From: a virus
IMG/VR virus record: IMGVR_UViG_3300028608_000043
Location: 1-38,047 of that record
Strand: one strand, 5' to 3'
DNA length: 38,047 nt
Part shown: positions 3,470 to 38,047 of the stretch, in pieces
How positions within the stretch are numbered: the stretch's first letter is position 1
Layout: each line of letters begins with the position of its first letter
The notes under the pieces: model-generated
The model's input: the letters and a program-made list of their open reading frames with translations, nothing else
Told to the model about the DNA's origin: nothing
Databases searched by the model: none
Position numbers and translations under genes: made by a program

Positions 3470-3543
3470 CGCCCTCGGTCCTCACCGAGCGGGCCATCAC
3501 TGGCTGAAGACCAATATCGCCACTTAGGCACCAGATGGCGGCA

Positions 3544-3578
3544 AGGGGTGTGTTACGCTTTAGCGCAATCACACCCCT
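3544..3578. other. Long intercistronic hairpin
   Basis: Arms AGGGGTGTG (3544-3552) and CACACCCCT (3570-3578) pair perfectly over 9 bp. The inside continues with TT/AA, one A-C mismatch and CGCT/AGCG around a TT loop, so the stem is close to 16 bp. It lies between the 213-residue gene and the 912-residue gene in the same transcript. There is no U-tract on the minus strand, so it is either a processing or attenuation structure or a factor-dependent terminator. Confidence 0.6.
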
Positions 3579-3622
3579 GCTTTAGGCAAACGACGTGTGC
3601 CAGTTGTTAGCCCACCGTCCGC

Positions 3623-4264
3623 TTAGTTCAGTTCGAAGATCCCGTTCGCGCTCGGGGTCACCGTCAGAGTGTTGCCGTCGTTGACCGTGAACTGGGCCGT
3701 GCTCAGAGCCGACCAGCAGACCAACTTACCTTGACCAACCTCGAAGATCACCGCGTACCGAACGTTGGCAATGTTGCCACCGCTGGCCGACCAGATGACA
3801 GCGTCCGCATTCCAGCGGTATTCCGAGGCCGAGGCCCCAGTCGACCACAGGGTGCTCAGAGCCTTGCCCGAGGTCGAGTAGCCGTTGCCGTCCGCGATCT
3901 GGTTCGTGACTGAACCGAGCACGCTAAGGTTGGCTGACGACGCCGCGTTGGACGCCGAAGTGAACAGCGCCATACGGAAGGAGTCATTGTCGAGGTCGAT
4001 GTCGCCAGTACCCAGGTACTTCTTAGCCGTGTAGTAGAAGGCCCAGGCTGTGGCCGCGCCCAGGTACATCTCGGCACCCATGGCGACGGCGGGATTGCGC
4101 ATCGTGCTGATAGCCGCGACCACGAGGGCCAGGGCCGCCACCCCACTGATAAGCCGCTTGCGCAGCGTGGGGCGGGATTGGAAGAGTTCTGGGCAGAACT
4201 CCAGGTGGAATTGGGCACCCTCGTTACGCAGTTGGGTGCGCAGGCATTCGTAGCTGGTCTTCAT
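3623..4264 (-). CDS. Phage structural protein with an N-terminal hydrophobic segment
   Basis: A protein of 213 residues. The C-terminal 150 residues begin WAFYYTAKKYLG and continue IDLDNDSFRMALFTSAS. This is a pattern I recognise from a widespread, poorly characterised phage virion protein family in which 'A-K-x-Y-[LI]-G ... IDLD-D-F-[KR]-[VM]-ALFTS' is conserved. Residues about 35-60 (ISGVAALALVVAAIS) form a hydrophobic segment that the usual family lacks, so the front may be a fused membrane anchor. The start at 4264 has a strong AGGAGG seven bases upstream and overlaps the end of the upstream gene by 41 bp. An internal ATG at residue 62 has no ribosome site. Function in the virion (decoration, tail or host contact) is not determined. 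Confidence 0.65.
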   Translation of the reverse strand: MKTSYECLRTQLRNEGAQFHLEFCPELFQSRPTLRKRLISGVAALALVVAAISTMRNPAVAMGAEMYLGAATAWAFYYTAKKYLGTGDIDLDNDSFRMALFTSASNAASSANLSVLGSVTNQIADGNGYSTSGKALSTLWSTGASASEYRWNADAVIWSASGGNIANVRYAVIFEVGQGKLVCWSALSTAQFTVNDGNTLTVTPSANGIFELN

Positions 4265-7865: not shown

Positions 7866-10385
7866 CTATTTATCCTTTACGACCGTGGTCTTGATAACGG
7901 TCACACTTCCTTCCAGCTTGAAGTTGGGATCGCGAAGCTGTCCGTAGGTACTGTACTGACTTGATGCCTTCTTGGGTACGTTAGTGATACTATCTACACG
8001 CAATTTAGTACCCCGTGGTAAAATCCACTCCCCTTCAATAATGTCTTGTATTTCCTCCTCGTCCTCAAGTAGCTCTGGGTCCGTAACAGCTACGGCCCGC
8101 ACACCCGGAGTGCCCTTCGGTGCAGTCACCTCCAACAGAACCCCCCTGGTCGAGCGTTGGGTTAGTTCCGCAATAGGCATAACATCTATATCAGCATTTG
8201 TTCGCAAGGCGTAGCTAACAGCTACACCTTCGTCGTCACTAGTACTAGCCGATTTGCTTAATTCAAATATTTCACCAGGCTTTGCGCTAGCAACCTGTTC
8301 TGCATAGTCCCCAAATACCCCACGGTACAACTTACTGTCCTCTGGTAGAGCAAAGTTACGAACAATCTCTTCTAGCTGGTCCTCGTTGATACGGTCTCTA
8401 CGGGATTCCGGATCCCAGGTTGTAACTGCCTGTATTGCTGTAACTGGAACCTGACCCCAAACTCCACCCCCATCCTTAGCTCGGGGGTCCGTGAAGACAT
8501 TTAGATTAAATTTAACACTGTCCTTCTCGTCGTAGACACGATCCAACTGGGCATTTAGGCGCGCGTTGGCTTCATACTCTGGTGTGCCTGGCATCCAAGC
8601 GCCTCTTGCAGGTTTGGCTTGCCACAAACGTCTCGACTCATCCATTAATCGTGCTTCCTCCAACTCCAAATCTTTCAGTTTGGCCCGTAACTCTCCTTCG
8701 GTTAACCCACCACCCGAGCTAGTCCACTGACCGCTATCGTCCCGGGGCTGGTCGGGATCATAACCGGCCTTCTCTACAGGCTCGTCCTCGTCGCCCATCT
8801 CTTCGAGCAGGCGCTGTATCCTTAGCAACACCTCCAGGACCGGGTCGTCCTCCTCAACAGGCCCACCCCCGTTGTGGGCCTTCTTTATGGGTTGCTTGCG
8901 TAGGTTGACCAAGGCATCAACACTCCGCTTCAGTAGCTTCTTGGCGTCTGCCTTCGTGACGGCCGCCACCACGCCTATGTTGTTAATCACCTCGTCAATA
9001 TACTGATTAGTGATATTCTCAGTACCACCCAGATTACCTGAGGCCTGGTCCACAATGGCAGCAATACCTTTTGAGATAGCATCCTTGACCTTCTGGGACT
9101 TAGCAATGCTACTCAAGACGTTAACAACATCGTCAGTCCGGGACCAGTCCTTGTACTGGTTGGGTGCGCTACCCCCAGACACTCGTGGGACGCTGCTCCC
9201 ACTGCTAGCACCACCCCCACCCCCAGACTCCGACCACTGGCCGTCCTCGCCACGGGGTTGGTTGGGGTCGAAGCCTGCTTTGATAACCTGTATCTGATTG
9301 CTGCTGTTAAATTTAGGCAGTGGGTTGGGCGTTGTGGGGATCTTAGCCCGCACAATGAATTCATGAAGGGTGTATTCCTTAAGCGTACCCTTCGCATCTA
9401 TAGCTACAGTACGCTTGCGAGGGATGTACTTAACTGGTTCCAGGATTGTATTACGGGGTAGGATAATCTCGCTCTCCTCACTGGGCTCCACTTTACCCGA
9501 CACTGCCACCGAAGGGACAGAGTACTTGCCACCACGCGGTACCATAATCTTCAGCAGTATACCGTCCCTAACCTCGTCCGGGGCCTGCTTCATAACTCCA
9601 CCAGTAGCAAAATCCACCGCCACGTCCTTATCCAGTGACGCAGACATGTAGCTACGGTCGAGTATTTGCGCAGAGTTCTTAATATGATCCAGCATATCCA
9701 AGTCAACACCCCGGAACAGCAGCATTGGCTTGTCAGTTGTTACGAACGACTTATCAATCGCCTTCACCATGCCGTCCTTACCTAAGGAACTGGACACCCC
9801 GTACCTAAGGTAGTCGTTCACCGAGTCCGACCCTGCTATAGCATAGTCAGCTAGCTCCCCACGCTCTAGCGGGTCGAACCTAAGCATCTTGGACCGGTAC
9901 TCACTAGCCGCGTCCAGGAAGTCCCGGGCATTGGGTATCTCACGCAATAGAGCAATATCCCCGGGCTTAGGACTGACCTCTGGTAGCTCGATCCTGTTCT
10001 CTGGTAGGGAGACCCACACCTTGCGCGTTGGCTCCAGATAAGTCAGGTTCTCCAACTCGTCCTTAATGTCTAAATTGAGCTTGACCTGCTGGTTCCATTC
10101 TGCCAGCATACGCTTATGCTCAGGGTCGTTAATATCCGGGATGGCCTTCATACCGGCACTTAGTTCGTCTATACGAGCACGTATCTTGGGTTGGTCGGCA
10201 ATAATCTGCCTGGCCCGGGCTAGTCCCTCGGGAGTCATGATCGTTGCGGCATCTATAGGTTTGCCAGGCTTATAGGAGCCCCCACCCCCAACGACCCACT
10301 TACCGCCTTCATCACGTGGCTGCTCGGGATTGAAGCCTGCCTTATTGATCAACCCTTCAGGGAGCTTGAGAATCCCTACTGGCAT
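7866..10385 (-). CDS. Head-associated protein with two ADP-ribosyltransferase-like domains
   Basis: A protein of 839 residues. Three copies of one linker motif occur: AGFNPEQPRDEGGKW (16-30), AGFDPNQPRGEDGQW (370-384) and AGYDPDQPRDDSGQW (540-554), each followed by a Gly/Ser stretch. Between them lie two domains with the R-S-E layout of ADP-ribosyltransferase exoenzymes. Copy 1 has LLFRGV (Arg225), SYMSAS (245-250) and EESEIILP (ExE at 304/306). Copy 2 has LYRGV (Arg688), SKSASTS (710-716) and IIEGEWILPRG (ExE at 784/786). The middle 390-540 holds helical and charged sequence. Members of this family transfer ADP-ribose from NAD to proteins. Position next to the portal suggests packaging in the virion and injection, as known for T4 Alt. 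Activity is inferred from motifs only. Confidence 0.8.
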   Translation of the reverse strand: MPVGILKLPEGLINKAGFNPEQPRDEGGKWVVGGGGSYKPGKPIDAATIMTPEGLARARQIIADQPKIRARIDELSAGMKAIPDINDPEHKRMLAEWNQQVKLNLDIKDELENLTYLEPTRKVWVSLPENRIELPEVSPKPGDIALLREIPNARDFLDAASEYRSKMLRFDPLERGELADYAIAGSDSVNDYLRYGVSSSLGKDGMVKAIDKSFVTTDKPMLLFRGVDLDMLDHIKNSAQILDRSYMSASLDKDVAVDFATGGVMKQAPDEVRDGILLKIMVPRGGKYSVPSVAVSGKVEPSEESEIILPRNTILEPVKYIPRKRTVAIDAKGTLKEYTLHEFIVRAKIPTTPNPLPKFNSSNQIQVIKAGFDPNQPRGEDGQWSESGGGGGASSGSSVPRVSGGSAPNQYKDWSRTDDVVNVLSSIAKSQKVKDAISKGIAAIVDQASGNLGGTENITNQYIDEVINNIGVVAAVTKADAKKLLKRSVDALVNLRKQPIKKAHNGGGPVEEDDPVLEVLLRIQRLLEEMGDEDEPVEKAGYDPDQPRDDSGQWTSSGGGLTEGELRAKLKDLELEEARLMDESRRLWQAKPARGAWMPGTPEYEANARLNAQLDRVYDEKDSVKFNLNVFTDPRAKDGGGVWGQVPVTAIQAVTTWDPESRRDRINEDQLEEIVRNFALPEDSKLYRGVFGDYAEQVASAKPGEIFELSKSASTSDDEGVAVSYALRTNADIDVMPIAELTQRSTRGVLLEVTAPKGTPGVRAVAVTDPELLEDEEEIQDIIEGEWILPRGTKLRVDSITNVPKKASSQYSTYGQLRDPNFKLEGSVTVIKTTVVKDK

Positions 10386-10761: not shown

Positions 10762-11369
10762 TTCTTGCGTTCCTCCTCCAGATGGACTACCGCCGCAGCA
10801 CTGTTCTGCCTTTGACGCTCACCTAGTTCTGCTCGCAGTTCTTCTAGCTTGACGACAGTTTTCTGGATGTCAGCCGCCAACGCAGGGCTGGGCTCCTGTC
10901 CCAGCCGCTTAGCAGTATCGGCCATCTCGCGCATGTAGATCAGCTTGGCCTCGACCGCCTCGAACAATGCTACGGTCACCTTGGTCAGGTTGGAGTTGAC
11001 AAGCGTATGAACCTCCTTCAGATCGCCCTTCAACCCATCAATCTTTCCAGCCAACTCTGACCTTGCAAGGACTGTCGTGTCGTTTGTTTCCTTGGCGACC
11101 TGTGCGACCTTGTCGTTCGATGCCAGCAGAAGCTCCGCAGCCTCGGAGGTCTTGTCAACCATGTCCTGCTGCTGAGCACCGAGCTTGGCGGCCGCGTCCC
11201 TTGCTTCCTTCTGACTCACTCTGAGTCGCTCGGCGACTAGGTCCTCGCGAGCACGGTCCTCCCGCTTGTCCATCCTGCGGCTGCGCTCCATGAGCAGCGG
11301 AGCGACGAACGACGTGAGCGCTGTCGGAATAGCCACGATCAGCGCCACCCACATTGCCTCGGAGATCAT
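10758..11369 (-). CDS. Membrane-anchored coiled-coil protein
   Basis: A protein of 203 residues starting at the ATG at 11369, which has GGAG six bases upstream and overlaps the beta-helix gene stop as TGATG. The frame that runs 28 codons further up lies inside the previous gene. Residues 1-25 (MISEAMWVALIVAIPTALTS) form one membrane helix, followed by an Arg/Lys/Asp-rich stretch and a long coiled coil to the end. Positive charge after the helix predicts an N-out, C-in anchor. This layout occurs in phage holin-like and spanin-like accessory proteins, but no specific family was recognised. Neighbouring small membrane proteins suggest the lysis module. Confidence 0.6.
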   Translation of the reverse strand: MISEAMWVALIVAIPTALTSFVAPLLMERSRRMDKREDRAREDLVAERLRVSQKEARDAAAKLGAQQQDMVDKTSEAAELLLASNDKVAQVAKETNDTTVLARSELAGKIDGLKGDLKEVHTLVNSNLTKVTVALFEAVEAKLIYMREMADTAKRLGQEPSPALAADIQKTVVKLEELRAELGERQRQNSAAAVVHLEEERKK

Positions 11370-12178
11370 CACACGCTCCACGATGTTGGATAGCCCCACC
11401 AGCGATAGCTTGGTGACCACTCGAAGCTGCGGTTGAGCAGCATGGCCCACCACGGCGTACGGAGGTTTAGGCCACCAGCCACCCAGATGGGCTGCGATCT
11501 GAAGTCATATGCGCAGTTGGTTATGCGAATATTGGCATAGGTGCCAGGGCTTCCATTGACACCTATGCAGGAGCCTTCGTTGCCGAAGAACTTGCATCTG
11601 TCTACCAAGACGTTCCTGATAGCCTGCTCGGGAAGATCACACTCCATGTCAATACCATCACCGGGAGGCGTTCCACCCGTATTGGAAAATACACAATTCG
11701 AAACCAGTAAACCCTCGACCGCAATTGCGCTCAAGCCTTGACGACGGTTGCCATCGGAGATCACGCTATCGATCACCACGTTGGTTGCCTCTTGGACGTA
11801 GAGCCCGTCCGCGAAGCAGCGTGACACATGGGTTCCGAATACCTTGATTGTATGCGCCTTGCGAATATCGATGCCGTGTCCGAATCCACCAACGTCCCAC
11901 TTTGTGGACGCCAGGTGCGTGTCGCGCTCTCCTATAATCCTGCCACCGATAATGCTGACGTTATCAACGTCCCAGAGCTTGAAGATACGATAGCCGAGTT
12001 CTGCAGTAGGCAGCGCCCTGACAGTGGCGTCCGTCAGGTCCAGGGTGATGCCCGACTTGAGGGTTATGCCACTGTTGGCGTTGTCATTGGTGACGTTGAC
12101 GTCATACGTCCCAGCTGGGACCTTGACAGTGTCGCCAACTCTGGCGGCGTCGATCATTGCTTGAATAGTCATGTTCAT
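11369..12178 (-). CDS. Right-handed beta-helix (pectate-lyase-like) protein
   Basis: A protein of 269 residues. The start region MIDAARVGDTVKVPAGTYDV followed by ITLKSGITLDLTDATVRA is the classic opening of phage beta-helix proteins ('I..A..Gd.v~~paGtY.v...'). The repeating turns continue: VSIIGGRIIGERDTH, IDIRKAHTIKVFGTHVSRC, LYVQEATNVVIDSVI, LLVSNCVFSNTGG, IRNVLVDRCKFFGN, IRITNCAYDF. Such proteins are often polysaccharide depolymerases in tail spikes. This one is short and lacks an obvious particle-binding N-terminal domain, so it may be a free enzyme or an accessory to a fibre. It lies away from the tail genes, among small lysis-like genes, which is odd. Confidence 0.8.
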   Translation of the reverse strand: MNMTIQAMIDAARVGDTVKVPAGTYDVNVTNDNANSGITLKSGITLDLTDATVRALPTAELGYRIFKLWDVDNVSIIGGRIIGERDTHLASTKWDVGGFGHGIDIRKAHTIKVFGTHVSRCFADGLYVQEATNVVIDSVISDGNRRQGLSAIAVEGLLVSNCVFSNTGGTPPGDGIDMECDLPEQAIRNVLVDRCKFFGNEGSCIGVNGSPGTYANIRITNCAYDFRSQPIWVAGGLNLRTPWWAMLLNRSFEWSPSYRWWGYPTSWSV

Positions 12179-12219
12179 TCACCCGTTGTGTTTGATCGAC
12201 GCCACCAGCGCTCTGCAAA

Positions 12220-12321
12220 CTACCGCAGTTCTTCGATGGCGTAGTCAGCAGTATTCACCGTACACTTGTTGGCACCCAACCCGAGCCCCAACAAGCTAGC
12301 GATCAGTAGGATCTTAAGCAT
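12220..12321 (-). CDS. Small secreted peptide
   Basis: A 33-residue reading frame with an ideal AGGAGG six bases before its ATG. The sequence starts MLKILLIASLLGLGLGANKC, a signal-peptide-like hydrophobic core with one Lys in front and a Cys at residue 20. The residues before Cys (A-N-K) are not a good lipobox, so it may or may not be lipidated. A small outer-membrane spanin subunit is possible. The ribosome site makes expression likely; the function is unknown. Confidence 0.5.
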   Translation of the reverse strand: MLKILLIASLLGLGLGANKCTVNTADYAIEELR

Positions 12322-12334
12322 AAGTAGCCTCCTT

Positions 12335-12538
12335 TCACTTCGTCTTGTCGCAAATGATGCAGACACTGTAAGGTGTCGCATCAGAGACCGGCGTGTCCTT
12401 CCGTATAGCAGGATACACCGCCCGCCATTCGTGGCCGAGCAGCCAGCACCACCTAGCGCGATCGAAGAAGGCCCTACGCGGTGGTAGTTCCTTCATATCA
12501 CGCCTGTGACGCCTTATCCGCTCTTGCCACTTGTCCAT
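12335..12538 (-). CDS. Small zinc-ribbon-like phage protein
   Basis: A protein of 67 residues from the ATG at 12538, one base after the stop of the holin-like gene. The basic helical front MDKWQERIRRHRRDM is followed by CWLLGHEW and, near the end, CIICDKTK. This 'C..~GH.W ... C..C' pattern resembles small DUF1660-like phage zinc ribbons. A Zn site from Cys, His and two Cys is plausible. A role in host takeover or lysis regulation cannot be determined. Confidence 0.55.
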   Translation of the reverse strand: MDKWQERIRRHRRDMKELPPRRAFFDRARWCWLLGHEWRAVYPAIRKDTPVSDATPYSVCIICDKTK

Positions 12539-12539
12539 G

Positions 12540-12851
12540 CTATTTAACCGGTACGACCCCGTATTCCGCTGGGTCCATCGCAACCTCCTTGATCTCGGGC
12601 GCTGCGTTGGGGCGGACCTCGATTGTGACGCCGGTCTGCGACCCAGCCTGCTGGGTAACAGCCTTGCCTCTATTCGAAATCCAGTCCAGTGCTGCCGACC
12701 CTAGCATGGGAACTAGCACAACCAGCGTTTCGGTCACAGGACCAGCTAGCTCAACCGGCATGTAGTTCCTGGCAACCAACCAAGCGATCGCGGACGGGAG
12801 CACAACCCGCATCACGCCCGCGATCTGGTTGGATAGGATAGTGTTGTTCAT
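12540..12851 (-). CDS. Holin-like small membrane protein (Pam3-gp28-like)
   Basis: A protein of 103 residues. The N-terminal part IAGVMRVVLPSAIAWLVARNYMP and the segment ETLVVLVPMLGSAALDWISNRGK make two membrane or amphipathic segments. The pattern 'G..R.~lp..aa.lva.g..p......~i...l~~l~~~~ws~~~n' is like the small phage membrane proteins annotated Pam3-gp28 or putative holins. The C-terminus is soluble and ends EYGVVPVK. Holins make the inner-membrane lesion for lysis. No endolysin was recognised nearby, so the assignment rests on topology and family resemblance. Confidence 0.6.
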   Translation of the reverse strand: MNNTILSNQIAGVMRVVLPSAIAWLVARNYMPVELAGPVTETLVVLVPMLGSAALDWISNRGKAVTQQAGSQTGVTIEVRPNAAPEIKEVAMDPAEYGVVPVK

Positions 12852-13036
12852 GCCCGAACAACCTTGAAGCCTCGTGCCACGATGCGGTCGACGACATCGG
12901 ACGCGCCGCGCGCAGTCAGTCTCTCGGTGCGGCTTCCCGATATGCCCTCAACTCCTACGTCGGCCCCGGTCAGGGCTTCGACAACGGACTTGCGCAGCGC
13001 CACCAGTTCAGTCTCGGTAGGGGCTCCATTGCTCAT
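12848..13036 (-). CDS. Hypothetical protein
   Basis: A protein of 62 residues with AGGAGTGTAAA before the ATG and an ATGA overlap with the holin-like gene. It contains VEGISGSRTERLTARGASD and ends VARGFKVVRA. It is predicted alpha/beta and hydrophilic, without metal ligands or a membrane segment. No family was recognised; translation coupled to the holin-like protein suggests the lysis cluster. Confidence 0.55.
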   Translation of the reverse strand: MSNGAPTETELVALRKSVVEALTGADVGVEGISGSRTERLTARGASDVVDRIVARGFKVVRA

Positions 13037-17672: not shown

Positions 17673-17789
17673 GTTGGTTCTGTTACTCTCAATTCTTCAC
17701 TAGGATGGTGGCATATATAACGAATAATAACAGGGTCGTATAGCCACAATATCAGTTTAATTTAGACATAAAAACAATTAGACAAAAAA
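17673..17789 (-). promoter_or_regulatory. AT-rich non-coding gap, probable start of the packaging/structural transcript
   Basis: The stretch is much more AT-rich than the genes around it and holds TTGTTT with TGATAT 17 bases away and several T-runs on the minus strand. It lies directly upstream of the terminase-like gene. A promoter for the late genes is a reasonable guess. No strong consensus pair or terminator stem was found. Confidence 0.3.
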
Positions 17790-17966
17790 TCAAAGAATGC
17801 TAAAATCACGACCAGCAATTTTGCCTAGAGCGCGGCACGCATCATCTAGTTCTTTCTCGGTGTATCCAAGCCGATTAAGCGCACGCATAGCAGTCTCATG
17901 ATAGCTCTTGCTTTCCAGGGTTTCGATGTAGTCAATCAAGGCATCAGCCTGTTCACTAGTTAGCAT
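17790..17966 (-). CDS. Small helical protein
   Basis: Its 58 codons run from the ATG directly adjoining the preceding TAG to a TGA at 17792-17790. It begins MLTSEQADALIDYIETLESK and continues MRALNRLGYTEKELDD. The sequence is helical and acidic. It resembles small phage helix-hairpin proteins, but I cannot name a family. The stop-start junction TAGATG implies translational coupling. It is followed by an AT-rich gap. Confidence 0.5.
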   Translation of the reverse strand: MLTSEQADALIDYIETLESKSYHETAMRALNRLGYTEKELDDACRALGKIAGRDFSIL

Positions 17967-18389
17967 CTAACTCTCCACAGTCCACGTCTTCACAACCTGG
18001 GCAGGCTGGGGCTTGATGATCTCACCCTTGATAATCAGGGTACCGACCGTATACTCGATACCACGCCTATCAATACTATCCAGGAACACCTTGTCTACCT
18101 GATCGGCATAGTTCTCATTCAGGTAGGCTGGAAGGCGGTGTTCCTCGATGACATCCAGGCTGACCTCACCATCCTCAGAGAAGTCAAATACAAACACCTG
18201 TGGGCCACGAGACATTTCAATCCTCCTCGTCAATTTCCTCACCAGATATGACCGAGCCGTCCGTGCGATTTGCTCGTCCGTCATGCAGGAGATACCAAAT
18301 TCGCTCTCGGCCAACTGCTTCTCGGTAATGAGACAGCGCTCGCAGACGTGAGTCAGCGGCGAAAATTGGTGTCTCGGCGGTTCACTCAT
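17967..18389 (-). CDS. Hypothetical protein with an N-terminal CxxC
   Basis: A protein of 140 residues. The ATG at 18389 is chosen because AGGAG lies eight bases before it; an ATG two codons earlier has only two. HVCERCLITEKQL looks like a small zinc-binding head. From residue 60 (RGPQVFVFDFSEDGEV) it changes to an alpha/beta domain with IIKGEIIKPQPAQVVKTW at the end. Two originally separate small proteins may have been joined. No family was recognised. Confidence 0.5.
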   Translation of the reverse strand: MSEPPRHQFSPLTHVCERCLITEKQLAESEFGISCMTDEQIARTARSYLVRKLTRRIEMSRGPQVFVFDFSEDGEVSLDVIEEHRLPAYLNENYADQVDKVFLDSIDRRGIEYTVGTLIIKGEIIKPQPAQVVKTWTVES

Positions 18390-18561
18390 CGGCATGACTC
18401 CTACGCATGATATCCTTGCCGCTACAGTACTCCGCTGCCAATTGTAGCAGCCGGTTTATCACCCGCTGGTCCCGGGGCTCAAACCTGGTGGCCGCCGCGC
18501 GCAGGAACAGATCAATATCCTGCTTCAGGTGACTCATCTCCATCAGTTCTTCCTTAGTCAT
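18382..18561 (-). CDS. Small helical protein adjoining the repeat array
   Basis: A protein of 59 residues starting at the ATG at 18561, eight bases after GGGAG; a GTG and ATG just upstream have too short a spacing. It begins MTKEELMEMSHLKQDIDLFL and is helical throughout. The outermost array block lies only about 20 bases upstream of this start, so its leader is the end of the array. No family was recognised. Confidence 0.5.
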   Translation of the reverse strand: MTKEELMEMSHLKQDIDLFLRAAATRFEPRDQRVINRLLQLAAEYCSGKDIMRRSHADE

Positions 18562-18580
18562 TATCATCACTCCCTGTTAG

Positions 18581-19470
18581 AGTACGCTGGTGGTTATTGG
18601 GTTGCTAATTTGTAGTGGCACGCTAACTGGTCCTGGGTTACTATGCTTTAACGGCACGCTGACTTGTCTTGGATTTGGTTAATGGCATGTTGGCACGCTT
18701 CCTTTCATTGGGTTTCCAATACGTGATGGCGCGCTAGACTTCTCTTGGATTACTGCTTGGAGTTGGCGCGCTGATTTGATCTGGGTTGCTCTTACGCGAT
18801 GGCACACTTGCCTTCTTTGGGTTGCTGTTGGCCGTTGGTACGCTAGTGAGTTCCGGGCTGCTTCTCCTCAACGACACACTACAAGCCTTTGGGTTATTGG
18901 GAGGGTATGGCACACTACGCGGTGTTGGGCTTCTCCTAGCTTTTGGCACACTGATAGTCCTCGGATTGCTAGCTTAGAGTTGGCACACTCGACGATATTG
19001 GTTTCCTGCCTTTCAGTGGCACGCTGTACAACGTTGGGTTACTGGGCGGGTCTGGCACACTGGATTCTTGTGGATTGAACATCTTCGGCTTCGGCGCGCT
19101 GACTTGTCCTGGATTACTAGAGTTGCCTCTGACACACTGACCTGTCCCGGGTTACTTCTTCAAGAAGGCACGCTCCTTCATAGTGGGCTACTGTCACATA
19201 CTGGCCCGCTAGCTTGGTCTGGGCTGCTTGAGGCGACTTGACACGCTCTTTTGTCCTGGGTTGCTGGTTACCAATAGCACGCTACGGCTCTTTGTACTCC
19301 ATTCGATGCATTGGCGCGCTGTCCCTAATGGATTACTTGGCTTGTGTGGCTCACTAAACCTCCATGGGTTACTCGCGCTGGTGTGGCACACTAGTTGCTT
19401 TGGGTTTCCTGAGGTTTTGTGGCACGCTTACCCCTCAATGGGTTGCTTACACGGATTGGCTCGGGCCGCT
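18581..19470. repeat. TIGR-like dual-spacer array, left segment
   Basis: There are 25 copies of a block close to YGGCACRCT (block A), starting with the degenerate agtacgct at 18581 and ending with a decayed copy at 19458. Between successive copies lies a second block close to YGGGTTRCT (block B). The 24 A-to-A distances are 36 (14 times), 37 (6), 39 (2), 38 and 35. Segments between blocks are unrelated, almost always 9 nt. One clean unit is 18800-18835: A block, 9 nt, TGGGTTGCT, 9 nt. Both blocks share the form YGGNNNRCT. Conservation of short blocks with 9-nt variable pairs per 36 nt matches the published organisation of TIGR arrays, in which 36-nt tigRNAs carry two spacers. The frame is not kept, so it is not a coding repeat. 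Confidence 0.8.
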
Positions 19471-19714
19471 ATGACCTCCGCTTCGTACCGAATAAGTAAT
19501 CCACCCACGAGCGCCCGAGCTCCGGACTGACAGCATCGGCGGGGATCACTGCGACCGAATCGTGGTCTGGTGATACGACTACGACAGGGTGCTTAGGCAC
19601 CGCGATTTGCAGCACGGTATCAGCCGGTAGCCTGACCTTCTTCATCTTGGTCTTGGTCTTGATCCGGGTCTTGACCTTGCGCTTGCTAGCAGTCTTACGC
19701 TTCTTCTTTGCCAT
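19469..19714 (-). CDS. Lysine-rich small protein inserted in the array
   Basis: A protein of 80 residues with AAAGGAGA before its ATG. Residues 1-30 hold 16 Lys/Arg (MAKKKRKTASKRKVKTRIKT, then KTKMKKVRLP). The rest is a short beta-rich part (VLQIAVPKHPVVVVSP, VAVIPADAVSP). Such a tail binds nucleic acid or acidic protein. The stop codon lies in the last decayed array block and the ribosome site lies 20 bp from the next array block, so it replaces about seven units without a gap. It may have been inserted into the array or may serve it, for example in RNA handling; neither is shown. Confidence 0.6.
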   Translation of the reverse strand: MAKKKRKTASKRKVKTRIKTKTKMKKVRLPADTVLQIAVPKHPVVVVSPDHDSVAVIPADAVSPELGRSWVDYLFGTKRRS

Positions 19715-19732
19715 GATCAGTCTCCTTTGGTT

Positions 19733-20510
19733 AGCACACTGTTAGTGTTTGGGTTACTCAGATTATCTGGCACACTGGCGATCAACGGGTTACTATCATA
19801 GTGCGGCACACTGTTCCACGTTGGGCTTCTATTACGGCCTGGCACACTTTACCCCTTTGGGCTTATAAATCATACAGGGCTCGCTATCGAACAAGGGGTT
19901 TCTGTTATCCATCGGCTCGCTGGCTACGAGTGGAGGTCTCTCGAACCCTGGCACACTAGGCACTTTTGGGTTGCTTTCCAAAACCTGGCACACTAGTTCA
20001 TTTTGGGTTTGCTCATGGCAGATGGCTCGCTGTCAACCTTAGGGTTGCTGGGAATTGACGGCACACTACTCGCATCCGGGCTACTTACGCTGCATGGCAC
20101 GCATCGGCGGCTTGGAGTTCTCACCGGCAGTTGGCACACTGTCACGTTATGGGTTCCTCGCAATCTGATGGCACACTACCGGGCCTTTGGGTTGCTTCAT
20201 TGCCGTGGCACGCTATGAGGATTTGGGTTACTGCCTAATTTTGGCCCACTATAGTCCCACGGGATACTGGGAGGTCTTGGCACGCTGAACTTCCATGGGC
20301 TACTACTAGGGGGTGGTGGCACGCTGGGCTTTCTCGGGTTACTAACCTTAATAGCACGCTTACGCATTTTGGTTTACTGAGTCCCTATAGCACGCTGCCG
20401 GTTCCTGGCTAGTTAGCTTTGTTACCTCGGCACGCTGATCTCTTCTGGATTTGCTGGCTGATCAAAGGCGCGCTCACCTGTTTTGGGTTACTGAGTTCTT
20501 GTGGCACTAT
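19733..20510. repeat. TIGR-like dual-spacer array, right segment
   Basis: There are 22 further copies of the A block (YGGCACRCT) from 19733 to 20503, alternating with the B block (YGGGTTRCT). The 21 distances are 36 (11 times), 37 (6), and 39, 35, 40 and 38 once each. Variable segments are 9 nt with a few of 8 or 10. A clean unit is 19804-19839. The units toward the right end (20353-20503) are more decayed and more irregular, as if that is the older or leader-distal end. The last A block holds the TAG of the small gene beginning at 20599, so the array joins coding sequence without a spacer. Which strand is transcribed is not decided by the sequence; the neighbouring genes all run leftward. 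Confidence 0.8.
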
Positions 20511-20599
20511 TCTCCACCTTCTCCTGGGTCCACCACCATCAATACGATGGCCGCCGCGAGCACCAGCACTAGATATGCCGCCAGGTCAGGCCCTGTCAT
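20507..20599 (-). CDS. Possible 30-residue membrane peptide at the array border
   Basis: A short frame MTGPDLAAYLVLVLAAAIVL followed by MVVDPGEGGE and TAG. One hydrophobic helix with a small acidic tail would make a single-pass peptide. Its ATG overlaps the upstream gene by 14 bp. No Shine-Dalgarno is obvious, so it depends on coupling. Its TAG lies inside the last array block. Confidence 0.35.
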   Translation of the reverse strand: MTGPDLAAYLVLVLAAAIVLMVVDPGEGGE

Positions 20600-20789
20600 C
20601 CGATTGGGTTGCTCGCAACTTGGCCGCTATGATCCTGGCCGCTGTGGACTCCGCCTGGTACTTGTTTATCAACGGCTGGGGGGCCTTGATCTTACGCATT
20701 TGAACGGCTAGCCCCTCATCGGTAGCGGCCTCCTGCTCCAGGTAGGCCGCGAACCGATCCCGTTCCTCCGCCGTCAGCCGTAAACCCAC
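20586..20789 (-). CDS. Small helical protein, GTG start
   Basis: A protein of 67 residues beginning at a GTG with GGAGAA about six bases before it, inside the tail of the preceding peptide gene. It begins MGLRLTAEERDRFAAYLEQE and is helical and charged. The C-terminus (ARIIAAKLRATQSDDRA) is helical too. Its coding DNA contains one chance-like TGGGTTGCT at 20606-20614 beside the array. No family was recognised. Confidence 0.5.
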   Translation of the reverse strand: MGLRLTAEERDRFAAYLEQEAATDEGLAVQMRKIKAPQPLINKYQAESTAARIIAAKLRATQSDDRA

Positions 20790-20854
20790 AGCAGTTCTCC
20801 GATTATGTAGATGATCGTCACCACCAACACTAGCGCAACCAGGCCATAGGTCAT
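20774..20854 (-). CDS. Possible 26-residue membrane peptide
   Basis: The frame starts MTYGLVALVLVVTIIYIIGE and ends LLWVYG before TGA. It is one transmembrane helix. It overlaps the following gene and supplies its ribosome site, so it may be a real coupled peptide or a leader. No good Shine-Dalgarno precedes it. Confidence 0.35.
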   Translation of the reverse strand: MTYGLVALVLVVTIIYIIGELLWVYG

Positions 20855-20861
20855 AACACTG

Positions 20862-21296
20862 TCATTCACGACCGTACACCTTAAATACGCCATTGGGCCA
20901 GAGCACGTAGACGACCTTGCCCACCCTCTTAGCATAACGCACAGTCGCCCAAGTACCCGACCGAAGCTTTTCCTTAAAGCCAGCGGGGGCTGCTATCAAG
21001 TAATCAACAGCATCCACTATGTCGTGGTTACGCTCCAAGTAGGGTTTTGGGGGCAGTACACGCTTGGCCTGCTTATAGGCACGGGCGCGGGGGTTATCAG
21101 GCGGGTGGATCACTGGCTTTAGACGTAAGGCCGTACAGATATCATGCGCCTCTGCGTCCGCCCCAATACAATCACCGTGATGTAATTCAGTCCCAACGGA
21201 ATAGTCATTCAGGCACACACGCAGAGCGTCCAACTGCGCAGCAGTCATTCCGCGCTTGGTACCTGTAAAACCTATCCTATACACGGGGCGATCCAT
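20862..21296 (-). CDS. SLOG/YpsA-DprA-like Rossmann-fold protein
   Basis: A protein of 144 residues from the ATG at 21296; the longer frame belongs to a shadow of the next gene. It begins VYRIGFTGTKRGMT, followed by ELHHGDCIGADAEAHDIC, RNHDIVDAVDYLIAAP and RSGTWATVRYAKRVGK. The sequence of 'G~tG.R.', 'HGdc.GaD..a...a', 'R~~~iv...d.lia~P' and 'SGTw.tv..A...gk' identifies the SLOG superfamily, YpsA/DprA-like, common in phages as small stand-alone proteins. The fold binds nucleotides, nucleotide sugars or ADP-ribose derivatives. In SLOG-containing defence systems it senses NAD or ADP-ribose products. Whether this one works in defence evasion or DNA handling is not known. Confidence 0.75.
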   Translation of the reverse strand: MDRPVYRIGFTGTKRGMTAAQLDALRVCLNDYSVGTELHHGDCIGADAEAHDICTALRLKPVIHPPDNPRARAYKQAKRVLPPKPYLERNHDIVDAVDYLIAAPAGFKEKLRSGTWATVRYAKRVGKVVYVLWPNGVFKVYGRE

Positions 21297-21492
21297 CGGC
21301 CTGTCGCGTAATAGCAACATTGGCCCACATCGCAGTCGTACGATGGTTCCTAACCACCCAGGTCTTATCGGGGCCGTCCGGGAGCTCCTTCTCCAACACC
21401 TCACTAAATACCTTAGCAGCTTCCCGTACGCGCTGCATGCGCTCCACCTGCTCAGGGGTCGGTTGAAGATAATCGTAGGCTGACGTATGCAT
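21277..21492 (-). CDS. Small Acb2/Tad1-hairpin-like protein (possible anti-CBASS/anti-Thoeris)
   Basis: A protein of 71 residues. The end PDGPDKTWVVRNHRTTAMWA followed by NVAITRQ resembles the helical-hairpin motif of the Acb2/Tad1 family (DUF7681), where a 'pp.r......~L..a.mwan.aI.R' helix ends the fold. Acb2 and Tad1 proteins bind and sequester cyclic nucleotide or gcADPR signals of CBASS and Thoeris defence. This one lies directly before the SLOG-fold gene and overlaps it by 20 bp. The match is by eye to a short motif, so the call is provisional; a profile search is needed before the name is used. Confidence 0.45.
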   Translation of the reverse strand: MHTSAYDYLQPTPEQVERMQRVREAAKVFSEVLEKELPDGPDKTWVVRNHRTTAMWANVAITRQADGSPRV

Positions 21493-21528
21493 GGTTTATC
21501 TCCCTTTTCCACGCCTATACATACAAAG

Positions 21529-22059
21529 CTAGGCCGCCGATGCAGCCTCCAGATCATTACCGCCAATCAATATTGTGGCCTTACGTCCAAGGTAATCCAA
21601 CAACACTCGTTCCCGATCCTTAGGACCAGTACCATCATAGATACCGACAAACCCTGTCAGGTGACCATTCACTACTCGCACAGTCTCACCCACGCGGAAC
21701 CGGCTGTCCTCTCCATTGTACTTGGGAAGGTTAACAAAGCCATCCGACCCCTCTAGCAGGTGTAGCCGCTCAATCTCTGCATCGGGCATGATAGCGGGTA
21801 GGCCGCCCTGTAGTACAACAGTCAATACCCCAAAGGTGCCTAGCAGGAACCGCCAGCGCCCCTCGTTCTTCACAAATATGTAGCCCGGGAACAGGCTACT
21901 GACCTTCTTCTCGGCAACAGCCTTTGCCCGGGCTTTCTTACGCACAGCGATCCGTGGGTAGTAGAACGTACCCCCCTGATTAGCAATATTCTCGCAGGCC
22001 CAGGCCTCCCGCTGACTATGTGTCCGAACAACCAGCCAGCCACGCACCTCTAGAAGCAT
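21529..22059 (-). CDS. NusG/RfaH-like transcription antitermination factor
   Basis: A protein of 176 residues from the ATG at 22059, which has GAGGA eight bases before it; the upstream frame would need TTG. The front WLVVRTHSQREAWACENIAN with later SLFPGYIFVKNEGRWRFL is the NGN domain pattern ('W~vv.t....E..a...L...g...y.P......r......pLFPgYlFv'). FRVGETVRVVNGHLTGFVGI is a KOW motif. NusG paralogs bind RNA polymerase at the clamp and let it pass terminators or couple to ribosomes. A phage copy could direct host polymerase to phage operons. A 13-bp palindrome lies just upstream. It stands alone between small accessory genes. Confidence 0.85.
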   Translation of the reverse strand: MLLEVRGWLVVRTHSQREAWACENIANQGGTFYYPRIAVRKKARAKAVAEKKVSSLFPGYIFVKNEGRWRFLLGTFGVLTVVLQGGLPAIMPDAEIERLHLLEGSDGFVNLPKYNGEDSRFRVGETVRVVNGHLTGFVGIYDGTGPKDRERVLLDYLGRKATILIGGNDLEAASAA

Positions 22060-22076
22060 GCAGATGGTCCTCACCA

Positions 22077-22122
22077 GGGATAAAATCCCCAAATCCTTAA
22101 ACCCGGTAAGGATGGAAGTCAA
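22077..22122 (-). promoter_or_regulatory. Palindrome and weak promoter-like pair before the NusG-like gene
   Basis: GGGAT-AAA-ATCCC (22077-22089) is a perfect 13-bp palindrome or hairpin in the short leader. On the minus strand TTGACT (22122-22117) stands 18 bases from AAGGAT (22098-22093). A promoter is possible but the -10 is poor. The palindrome could be an operator or an RNA hairpin that regulates translation of the factor. Confidence 0.3.
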
Positions 22123-35788: not shown

Positions 35789-36350
35789 CGACCGCACCTT
35801 CAACGAGCTCTAATAATTTTTCTAGCGCCGCGTCACGGCGAACCTTTATCACCCTAGCACCCTGCGCCTGCATCTTGGTACAATAGTTGGCCGCCCGCAC
35901 AAAGTTACCCTTGGTATTTTTCTTATCCAATAGCCGACCCTGCCCGCGCGCCGATCGGCGACTGTTGATAGATGCGACGCACGTCGCGTAGGGCACGTCA
36001 AGCTGTAGGATAACGAACTCCTTCCCATACTCGGCGGCCAGCTGTGGACCACGAGTATGGTTCATAACAATCAGCCCCTCGTAGATAACATGATACCGTT
36101 TAGCCTTCTCCCGGATCAGGTCGAATATCTGGACCACGTCACGGATAGTATCACAGCCCGCCGTGTCAGCATCCTCATACGCCCCCATAAGGAAGAAGAG
36201 CACCCCCTCTATCCCAAAGGTGTACCCGATGGGGGGTTTGCGCCCCGCAATATACTGCGGCTTACAGGTGGCCTCCCCCACCCAGGATAGAAACTCGCGG
36301 ATCAGGTGGGTCTTACCCGATCCGGATGTGCCAGCTATATTGATTATCAC
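35763..36350 (-). CDS. P-loop kinase, second 5-hmdU DNA kinase-like copy
   Basis: A protein of 195 residues when started at the GTG at 36350, which overlaps the transporter stop as GTGA and places the typical MIINIAGTSGSGKT at the front. An ATG 33 bases upstream is the alternative. The P-loop is GTSGSGKT. IAGRKPPIGYTFG then LMGAYEDADTAGCDTIRDV and YHVIYEGLIVMNHTRG match the same kinase pattern as its neighbour. The first Gly of the GGCD motif is Ala here, so the two copies have diverged. They could act on different substrates or form a heterodimer. Confidence 0.7.
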   Translation of the reverse strand: MIINIAGTSGSGKTHLIREFLSWVGEATCKPQYIAGRKPPIGYTFGIEGVLFFLMGAYEDADTAGCDTIRDVVQIFDLIREKAKRYHVIYEGLIVMNHTRGPQLAAEYGKEFVILQLDVPYATCVASINSRRSARGQGRLLDKKNTKGNFVRAANYCTKMQAQGARVIKVRRDAALEKLLELVEGAVDANLSSRN

Positions 36351-37771
36351 TTGATCACGTCCAGCGCGTACCAGAACGACCATTCGTTAGCGATCACCAT
36401 AGACCAGAACAGCCAGGCCCACAGACCGCAAGCCACCGCGCAGATGCCCCCATAGAGTGGCAACCGGAAGTGGCTCCGTCCACCTAAGGCATACAAAACA
36501 CCAATCGTGCCTGTAGCCGTAGGGGCCATGAAGCTAAAGTCAACGGAGAAGCCTGTCATCATAATCCAGGGCACAGGGTTGAGCCCCACCGATGGTAATG
36601 CTGTCGTCAGCAACGGGATCAGCATGCCGGCCGTTCCAGTATCGGAAGCAACCTGGGCCATACTAATACACAACGCCACCCAGAGACCCACCGATACGAA
36701 GGGCTCGTAGCTCCAGATATTCCCAACCAGGTCCAGTACCTGCTGGCCCGCCCCGACCACACCAACCAGCGTGGATACACTCATCGCAATCGGCCACACA
36801 CTAACCGCGTGGATAGGGAACTGCTTCAAAGCTTTAAGCGGCAGCACCATACCTACCTTTGGGACCCAAAGCGCCAACGTGACAACCAACAAACCTACGT
36901 ATATCCACGGCAGGCTGAATGGCAACCAAGGCCGGACGTAGGGGAGACCAACGGCTAGCGCGAGCAGGACAGCCACCACCTTCTCGTGACGCGACCAGGG
37001 CTTAGGATGTGCGATCATATTAACCCGATCAGCAAACCTAAAATGCCTCCCACCCAAGGCCAGCACCCAAAATACAGCAGCGATGATTATCAAGCAGACC
37101 GTGGTTGGAAGCAGCATCCTAAGCGTAAATGACAGGGCCGTCACTTCGCCACCTAGCACCTTGTTTAGGCCCGCCCAGGTTATCGCGGCCTGGCCCCCTG
37201 CCATCGGTGTGAGGATGCCCCCTAGGGACGCTCCAATAGCCGTAGCGATAATAAGCAGCATAGCATCCTTGGAGCCTGCCACCGAGTCCAAGTCGTGATA
37301 GCCTGCCCGGTCAAGGATCTTCATAACGATCGGTATCAGTGCTAGGGCCACCACCACGTCCGCCGCGAAGTCCGAGATGATCGTGGAGAACACCAACCAG
37401 AACAGGGTCTGGGCACGCACGCTCGTACCGATCCGGGCAATGAAGAAGAGCGCCATACGCTCCATCAATCCACAGTGGACGGCCGCCACAATAACTACAG
37501 TTGGACCCACGATCAGCAGCAACGCCGGATGGAAGAAGCTCAGCAGTATTGTCGTTATTGGCACCCCCATCAGACCGAAGCCGATGATGGGAATAGCTGC
37601 AGTCCAGAGCACAGGCACCGCCCCACTAGCCCAGTAGATTGCTGCCCAAGCCATCACCCCAATAGCCGCGTAGCTAGGAGCAAGGCTCCAGGTCATCAGG
37701 AACACCGCTGGACCGATGAAGGCTCCTATTATACGACCAGTCTCGAACCTCTGCAGTACGTTCTCAATCAT
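36347..37771 (-). CDS. Multi-span membrane transporter, SLC13/DASS-like (ion transporter superfamily)
   Basis: A protein of 474 residues from the ATG at 37771, with GAGGA before it; the upstream start would be TTG. There are about 11-13 membrane segments. Two related re-entrant motifs occur: GASLGGILTPMAGGQAAITW, and in the second half SDTGTAGMLIPLL with SFMAPTATGTIGVLYALGG. That inverted duplication with a 'TP..G..n' type motif is the mark of the DASS/SLC13 and related ion transporter families that carry dicarboxylates, sulfate, phosphate or arsenite with sodium or protons. Its GTGA overlap with the kinase genes makes it part of the same operon. A transporter of this size in a phage is unusual. 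The substrate is unknown. Confidence 0.75.
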   Translation of the reverse strand: MIENVLQRFETGRIIGAFIGPAVFLMTWSLAPSYAAIGVMAWAAIYWASGAVPVLWTAAIPIIGFGLMGVPITTILLSFFHPALLLIVGPTVVIVAAVHCGLMERMALFFIARIGTSVRAQTLFWLVFSTIISDFAADVVVALALIPIVMKILDRAGYHDLDSVAGSKDAMLLIIATAIGASLGGILTPMAGGQAAITWAGLNKVLGGEVTALSFTLRMLLPTTVCLIIIAAVFWVLALGGRHFRFADRVNMIAHPKPWSRHEKVVAVLLALAVGLPYVRPWLPFSLPWIYVGLLVVTLALWVPKVGMVLPLKALKQFPIHAVSVWPIAMSVSTLVGVVGAGQQVLDLVGNIWSYEPFVSVGLWVALCISMAQVASDTGTAGMLIPLLTTALPSVGLNPVPWIMMTGFSVDFSFMAPTATGTIGVLYALGGRSHFRLPLYGGICAVACGLWAWLFWSMVIANEWSFWYALDVIK

Positions 37772-37782
37772 GGGATCCTCAC

Positions 37783-38047
37783 TTACAGCCAAAAGCCTTT
37801 GCGAATACGGATAGTCTTGTGATCCGCGATCTCTTTAGTAACCTTATAGTGCTGGAGCGCGTAGTCCTGACGACCATCCCACTTCTGAACCTCTCCCAGG
37901 TAACGCGGCGCGAACACCCGCCCTCGGGCCTCCCACACCTCACTAAGCGACATACGAATATTCTGAAGCTGTAACAATTCCTCAGCCTGCTTAATACGTT
38001 CCTGGTCGCGATCAATATCCCGACCGATGTAGTATCGACCCTTAGTC
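37783..38047 (-). CDS. Hypothetical protein, N-terminus off the window edge
   Basis: An open frame from the right edge to TAA at 37785-37783, so the first part lies beyond the window; 87 residues are visible. It reads GRYYIGRDIDRDQERIKQAE and continues MSLSEVWEARGRVFAPRYLG, and ends RIRKGFWL. It is charged and helical then beta. The stop is 11 bases upstream of the transporter start. No family was recognised. Confidence 0.55.
   Translation of the reverse strand, partial: TKGRYYIGRDIDRDQERIKQAEELLQLQNIRMSLSEVWEARGRVFAPRYLGEVQKWDGRQDYALQHYKVTKEIADHKTIRIRKGFWL

Follow-up and report, generated by a model that had tools for sequence, protein, structure and literature searches.

The IMG/VR virus record IMGVR_UViG_3300028608_000043 was analyzed over its entire length of 38,047 bases (hereafter, the window). 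It is a fragment of a tailed phage. A PHROGs scan of 30 open reading frames (ORFs), all of them on the minus strand, identified portal, terminase, DNA polymerase, clamp loader, and thymidylate synthase genes among others. At 18580-20510, on the same strand as these genes and about 1.7 kb from terL, lies an array of short alternating repeats, which we read as the guide array of a phage TIGR-TasA system. DNA-level comparison to named phages gave no near relative of the window. Its terminase had 945 named-phage matches, every one below 60% identity, with Rhizobium phages at the top.

The array had been noticed in an initial annotation made from the sequence alone, as 47 A blocks alternating with B blocks, and a chain parser trained on the region recovered it. 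On the minus strand, which that annotation had overlooked as the RNA strand, an edge repeat AGYGTGCCA (the A block) alternates with a loop repeat AGYAACCCA (the B block), giving 47 edges and 45 loops. Intervals between edges (n = 45) were 36 (25), 37 (12), 39 (3), 38 (2), 35 (2), and 40 (1) nucleotides (nt), so that the counts originally given for 36 and 37 were reproduced exactly. The estimate of about 45 guides and some 90 spacers was likewise borne out by 45 parsed units with 90 spacers. The variable segments had been described as almost always 9 nt; this length does dominate, but the description was slightly overstated (69 of 90, range 8-13, hand count on the parse). According to the 2025 account of TIGR-Tas systems (PMC12045711), TIGR arrays consist of alternating 8-12-nt edge and loop repeats with 9-nt spacers, the first edge being truncated at its 5′ end and the last at its 3′ end. 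The alternating short repeats of the window agree with this anatomy.

The array is divided into two minus-strand sub-arrays. Sub-array 1 (19732-20510, read from 20510 to 19732) contains 43 blocks, comprising 22 edges and 21 loops, for 21 TIGR RNA (tigRNA) units. Sub-array 2 (18580-19465, read from 19465 to 18580) contains 49 blocks, comprising 25 edges and 24 loops, for 24 units. Their chain scores were 478 and 559, respectively, compared with a maximum of 19.6 in 20 Markov shuffles of the window and a best score of 14.4 in the remainder of the window outside the array. Between them, a minus-strand ORF at 19469-19714 encodes a basic protein of 81 amino acids (aa), for which PHROGs and NCBIfam scans found no family. 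This interruption had also escaped the initial annotation, as had the truncated edges at three of the four sub-array ends. In the chain parse, the first edges of sub-array 1 (20502-20510, minus strand; ATAGTGCCA, with GTGCCA intact) and sub-array 2 (19457-19465, minus strand; CCCGAGCCA) are 5′-truncated, and the last edge of sub-array 2 (18580-18588, minus strand; AGCGTACTC, with AGCGT intact) is 3′-truncated. Sub-array 1 closes with an edge, AGTGTGCTA, that is nearly whole and barely truncated. The published rule is followed at the ends, with 5′ truncation in both first edges and 3′ truncation where sub-array 2 closes. Tandem Repeats Finder did not report the array, which is expected because half of each unit varies, and an Rfam scan gave no match reaching gathering scores. 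Within the array, the three units with loops at 18670-18678, 19110-19118, and 19148-19156 have nearly the same B spacer after the loop (AGACAAGTC, GGACAAGTC, and GGACAGGTC), together with unrelated A spacers.

The initial annotation held that a lack of any Nop-domain protein in this or related genomes would speak against a TIGR array. Such a protein is encoded by the same phage. Record IMGVR_UViG_3300033551_000003 (64,814 bases; G001) matches the window at 99.895% identity, with 32 mismatches over 30,467 bp (window 7581-38047 corresponding to G001 1-30467), and reaches 34 kb past it. At 55548-56564, G001 encodes a 338-aa Nop protein with no nuclease domain and an array on its strand. This protein scored 120.4 bits against the NCBIfam model TIGR_Tas_endo (NF052498; cut-off 100), and phmmer matched it in the PDB to TasH (1.2e-8) and TasR (2.9e-8). 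A profile built from 39 sequences strengthened these matches to 2.3e-18 and 1.4e-22, respectively; PDB titles indicate that later TasH structures also exist. The Pfam Nop model (PF01798) was discarded as a detector, as neither the window nor any of 23 array-bearing records matched it, while NF052498 does detect the family.

Structure prediction placed the G001 protein in the same group. Its AlphaFold2 model (predicted local distance difference test, 86.6; predicted template modelling score, 0.80) has a helical N-terminus, and TasH and TasR chains made up its ten best Foldseek matches. VIA-align gave Z-scores of 19.3 for TasH (9vzx), 18.7 for TasR (9mty), 13.4 for both IS621 and ISCro4, and 7.3 for Nop56/58. 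The aligned portions cover residues 65-304 of TasH and 112-322 of TasR, in both cases past the nuclease domains. Because the alignments start only there, the modelled protein is classified as TasA, a solo Nop protein, and not as TasR or TasH.

The association of array and protein extends well beyond this phage. Scanning viral contigs by repeat pattern alone returned 33 stretches in 28 contigs (hand count). When the ORFs from 29 array-bearing records or loci were clustered together with those of the window, one array-adjacent protein family emerged; 23 of these 30 sequences, which include mutual copies, encode it. Among 23 viral records picked by repeat pattern, 20 match the TIGR_Tas model (E ≤ 0.001), 18 of them above the curated cut-off; the other three are G010 and G015, which are shorter and carry the same array as the window, and G014 (10.6 kb). 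In comparison, three of 14 control genomes match the model and none exceeds the cut-off. In the opposite direction, the parser found an array in 77 of 80 TasA loci versus 0 of 77 TerL-related loci (three same-phage loci excluded), and two of 40 Markov-shuffled TasA loci passed the same threshold. Three named-phage records match TasA at E ≤ 0.001, two of Salicola phage CGphi29 and one of Microcystis phage Mvi-JY20, and a plasmid search gave no match.

Several further observations concern the distribution of the family. Four TasA-family loci lie in bacterial genome contigs (L230-L233; 84,980 species) versus 151 in viral ones, the search peptides having been partly different; L232 lies on a contig of 147,885 bases, similar to those of L209 and L223, two phage loci of the family. 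Contig G034, met as a pattern match in the target scans described below, encodes its own Tas at 3503-4144, which scores 220.6 bits with the TIGR_Tas model. Genes for an AAA ATPase (phrog_1297 in L116) and an apparent vWA-type protein sit close to tasA in L116 (17668-18714 and the next ORF) and L212 (298-2606), two family members that are distant from each other.

As a control for strand and repeat motifs, we used the TasH locus of Salicola phage CGphi29, which is named in PMC12045711. The parser found its array past tasH and in the orientation of that gene; the edge is AGCGAGCCA and the loop AGACAnCCA. This array and the minus strand of the window, where both repeats have the form AG...CCA, have AG as box D and CCA as box C. 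Across TasA loci, 101 of 102 array chains sit on the tas strand. The family-wide numbers come from a corrected parser, an earlier version having placed L210 (and L237, on the same contig) in the wrong edge/loop register; the consensi of L165, L166, L169, and L170 were doubtful under the earlier version also. Uncorrected versions underlie the Salicola control, the G012/L020 comparison, and the searches of phage DNA, codon-phase test, and tRNA-motif comparison given below. The corrected parser kept 139 of 155 loci and dropped 16, leaving 82 distinct arrays that share less than 30% of spacers and together hold 1727 distinct guide units, with 3299 of 3607 spacers being 9 nt long. Three TasA loci (L165, L166, and L169) have an array period of 37 nt (autocorrelation 0.68 at shift 37) with an apparently different loop, which the common parser misfits.

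The edges of these arrays retain base pairing. Across the 82 consensi, positions 2 and 7 are GC in 48, AT in 26, and GT in 8, so that they are always paired (81% expected if independent), and positions 3 and 6 are CG in 74 and TA in 8, again always paired (91% expected). Among 1892 single edges, pairs 2-7 and 3-6 are formed in 92% and 92%, respectively, against 81% and 84% expected, and the control pairs 2-8, 3-7, and 4-6 have no comparable excess. These values should be read knowing that the starting consensus of the parser and the locus filter favor purine-pyrimidine combinations at the edge pairs, with A-C and C-A still allowed, and that the arrays in the covariation and strand counts are phylogenetically non-independent. 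The two pairs fit the published edge, in which a box C/D pair is accompanied by a second pair that covaries (PMC12045711).

Taken together, the published anatomy, a Tas above the NF052498 cut-off in the same phage, and the Tas matches in array-chosen records uphold the TIGR interpretation first offered. We are confident that the element is the array of a phage TIGR-TasA system, whose minus-strand RNA would be cut to about 45 tigRNAs of about 36 nt, each held by a TasA dimer. Array anatomy, strand, TasA, repeat pairing, and guide turnover were computed here; processing, two-strand pairing, and DNA bending are proposed by analogy with the 2025 work, which describes cutting inside edge repeats, binding of 36-nt RNAs by Tas proteins (TasA, TasR, and TasH), base pairing of each spacer to a different one of the two DNA strands (TasR and TasH), and a dimer with a sharp DNA bend (TasR structure; PMC12045711). 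In this scheme, the transcript would be cut within each edge repeat, such that a tigRNA would consist of a half edge ending in GCCA, spacer A, the loop AGYAACCCA, spacer B, and a half edge AGYG. The protein would come from tasA, which this phage carries about 43 kb from the array alongside further arrays, and the arrays would act in trans, as we infer here. Spacers A and B would pair with opposite strands of a single DNA site, reading A and then the reverse complement of B. The complex would bind and bend this DNA without cutting it, and the nuclease-free TasA may thereby block transcription or replication at the bound site.

Several results weigh against this interpretation. The window record itself has no tas gene (no match in a Tas-model scan; best tblastn E of 0.15), the gene being present in the longer G001. 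Template modelling scores from Foldseek to TasH and TasR are only moderate (0.43-0.51 on the query). Some window repeats are badly degenerate, e.g. TTCAATCCA at 19071-19079. Within the 17700-21600 interval, we found neither a sigma-70-like promoter upstream of the array on the minus strand nor a terminator-like site at its 3′ end (near 18580), where an ORF follows directly; a rho-independent terminator is typical of TIGR arrays and does not define them (PMC12045711). Finally, when 1596 units, taken from the first parser, were searched against 2.84 Mb of phage DNA, neither the true pairs nor the three control sets had an exact target.

Comparison with known systems places the phage system closest to other TIGR-Tas members. 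The TIGR-TasH locus of Salicola phage CGphi29 (PMC12045711; NC_020844/HQ634153), with its edge as above and loop AGACAACCA, has the same box C and box D, also resides in a tailed phage with the array on the tas strand, and encodes a Nop domain that aligns with the G001 model. It differs in having an HNH domain, where the phage Tas described here has no nuclease, and one array just past tas in an 8.5-kb stretch, as opposed to 45 units 42.6 kb off and three more loci. The TIGR-TasA systems (e.g. that of Flavonifractor plautii, compared by its description in PMC12045711) share the solo Nop effector and dual-repeat array, and their tigRNAs are 36 nt; unlike the window array, those arrays flank tas and mostly have 5-15 units. 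TIGR-TasR of a Thermoproteota archaeon (9mty) shares the Nop fold, the edge/loop logic, and a CCA box C, in contrast to its RuvC domain and UG box D, for which the phage system has no RuvC and an AG box D. More distantly, IS110/IS621 bridge-RNA recombinases and box C/D small nucleolar ribonucleoproteins have a related RNA-binding Nop fold, the Nop56/58 Z-score being too low to count alone. Unlike these, the phage system has no DEDD recombinase domain and no K-turn that we could see, and a multi-guide array replaces a single RNA. CRISPR arrays, too, have repeats with variable spacers and can be compared as such in a phage. A CRISPR array, with one repeat of 25-36 nt and spacers of similar size, is ruled out by the two alternating 9-nt repeats and the 9-nt split spacers, and no Cas protein was found among the 30 ORFs scanned with PHROGs.

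The position of the window array departs from the published layout. G001 carries arrays at four places, 11000-12930 (the window array), 38519-38838, 49065-49326, and 56573-57558, running in the same direction as those neighboring ORFs that we read as genes. One parse gave 82 complete units, to which the window-trained parse adds one in the first place. The array at 56573-57558 begins 9 bp past tas and is the one adjacent to it; the window array lies 42.6 kb from tas. The search reported in PMC12045711 spanned 5 kb on each side of tas, with arrays located upstream and/or downstream and 5 to 15 units most common. The remote 45-unit array widens the known TIGR layout because it exceeds both this span and this size. 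Upstream of the array, an antiterminator-like gene on the same strand (phrog_6386; 21529-22122) may aid transcription through it. Elsewhere in the window, an 839-aa protein (7866-10385) has weak similarity to Alt-like ADP-ribosyltransferases (phrog_802, 2.5e-8), and a 481-aa protein (36347-37792) is weakly like DASS anion symporters (47.8 bits, below the 198.6 cut-off), which would be unexpected in a phage.

To follow how guides change, we compared flanks and guides in locus pairs with 1500 or more aligned flank bases and no fewer than five units per locus, counting units as shared within three mismatches. At flank identities of at least 99.5% (65 pairs), a mean of 99% of units were common. 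This fell to 52% at 98-99.5% identity (11 pairs), 43% at 95-98% (34 pairs; range 0.17 to 1.0), 42% at 90-95% (15 pairs), 29% at 85-90% (21 pairs), 5% at 80-85% (45 pairs), and 4% below 80% (103 pairs). Ranges are wide, pairs overlap, and the flanks represent a few kb around tas rather than whole phages. As an example, L210 and L212 are 95.9% identical over 10,688 bases, and of their 25 and 30 units, five are shared exactly and seven within three mismatches, with order kept. At the near-identical extreme, the window and G001 have the same sequence in all spacers that were compared. These sequence comparisons suggest that guide sets are replaced quickly relative to their flanks.

The change had no polarity. 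Across eight pairs, the mean array position was 0.51 for shared and 0.49 for unshared units, and the order of shared units was fully kept in four pairs, mostly in three, and much more weakly in L279/L280 (131 concordant, 78 discordant). Common spacers of the related phages G012 and L020 nearly always stay together as edge-A-loop-B. Near-identical spacers within a single array exceed column shuffles in 74 arrays (A, 142 versus 57; B, 174 versus 67). Because of the missing polarity, the intact units, and this excess of near-duplicates, whole units seem to be replaced and duplicated internally; unlike in CRISPR arrays, no growing end was seen.

As to which DNA these guides recognize, we consider it about evenly balanced whether they are aimed at further mobile elements that compete with the phage for its host, and not at the phage itself. 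The initial annotation had proposed searching with paired spacers, and this gave nothing above chance in the phage and its relatives and two leads in other phages. Targets were defined by a rule derived from PMC12045711, namely spacer A, 0-2 nt, and the reverse complement of spacer B. In the 2.84 Mb of phage DNA, one-mismatch sites with gaps of 0-3 numbered 29 for true pairs versus 22, 23, and 26 for mispaired and reversed-rule controls, which is no excess. A smaller search of 532 units in 2.0 Mb with the earlier parser, against mispaired and reversed-rule controls, was also negative. In a codon-phase test on diverged unit pairs, gap 2 put 15 of 32 in phase, gap 1 put 10, and gap 0 put 7, which is non-significant by our estimate.

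The two leads came from scanning viral contigs with two guide patterns, each kept in several arrays. The first, unit TAGAGGTCA (and variants)/AGCGAACTA, matched three stretches, two of which (L291 and L293; proteins 98% identical) represent one gene with gap 0. This gene encodes a primase-helicase (PHROGs; Pfam AAA_25), with TAGAGGTCATAGTTCGCT as the candidate site, and three arrays (L216, L220, and L221) hold the exact guide. The metagenome behind L291 is 3300021961, and the adjacent number, 3300021962, holds array L268 with a variant of the unit. The five variants of the guide differ at three positions, and in the target frame four of them retain the peptide LRGHSSL, while at this site 14 of 54 possible single changes are synonymous. 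Against the lead, one variant alters the peptide (LSGHSSL), the L268 variant from the sample next to the target's has two mismatches, the third pattern match lies in a different gene (L292, on contig G034; gap 2), and one mispaired control pair matches the helicase phages exactly (gap 1). Because the guide variants are mostly synonymous in the target frame, this match is a good lead and no proof.

The second unit, TTGAAGGCA/ACTTGGTCT, matched nine stretches, seven of which fall with gap 0 in a single gene for DNA polymerase (phrog_262, as tested on L301). These seven are homologous and hence non-independent. The commoner guide variant, TTTAAGGCA, would introduce a stop into the frame of this gene, and the same half-site occurs on both sides of the polymerase site, such that the reversed rule also fits. 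We regard the polymerase match as a weak lead. By themselves, the match numbers for both patterns are estimated to be no higher than chance in such a collection.

A different set of targets, the host chromosome, is a less likely alternative, though one with some substance: the guides would help to take over the host or to counter its defences, and tRNA genes might be among their sites. The unit CACTAACCARA/ATAGCTCAG is kept in arrays L199, L206, L210, and L212, and its 20-nt target, ATAGCTCAGTTTGGTTAGTG, seems to resemble a tRNA D arm. A 19-mer form of it had one viral-contig match, in a locus with 19 tRNA genes, outside any called one. The likeness is confined to this unit, however, and over all units tRNA motifs have no clear excess over mispaired controls. 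The only host-side search, with one 17-mer, found no match in the four bacterial genomes holding TasA loci.

We judge it improbable that the guides instead regulate the phage's own genes, with TasA as an RNA-guided repressor on its own genome. Binding there would be harmless for a TasA without a nuclease, and the four array loci of G001 lie among phage ORFs in the same direction. Yet in a self-target search of nine phages (324 units, gaps 0-2), no site matched exactly or with one mismatch and 5 matched with two; the corresponding counts were 0, 0, and 1 for mispaired and 0, 1, and 4 for reversed-rule sets, and no self-targets rose above chance. Guide sets that differ between loci with 95-98% identical flanks are also a poor match for fixed targets of the phage's own.

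It is more doubtful still that the window array is decayed and unused, kept by hitch-hiking. Degeneracy in several of its repeats, a spacer length other than 9 nt in 21 of 90 cases, and the distance to tas speak for this, but by hand count 42 of the 47 edges retain G2-C7 and three more have G-U at that pair; the identity of the window and G001 spacers argues weakly in the same direction. The notion that the repeats are double-stranded protein-binding sites (iterons, a centromere, or a packaging site next to terminase) and not guide RNAs draws on their short, regular form and closeness to terL, and deserves almost no credence given the alternation of two repeats around variable 9-nt spacers, RNA-type covariation within the edge, an orientation locked to tas, Tas matches in most array-bearing records, and the absence of such arrays from all 77 TerL relatives.

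TIGR-Tas systems as a kind have been known since 2025, and the layout and guide turnover are the new parts of the present work. Among the papers listed by literature searches for later TIGR biology, titles and abstract starts pointed to reviews and passing mentions only, and within these searches guide turnover appears unpublished. In its discussion, PMC12045711 leaves open the natural targets of TIGR-Tas and the mode by which arrays change. With 82 arrays and 1727 units, this phage family makes both questions testable, and candidate targets can now be named. Since arrays may sit far from tas, searches limited to its neighborhood would miss guides. As a tentative picture, to which we give somewhat less than even weight, phages of this family may wage an RNA-guided war in which nuclease-free TasA directs dozens of swappable two-part guides, encoded in dispersed, trans-acting arrays, against the replication genes of rivals, with internal renewal of guides outpacing change in the phage genes.

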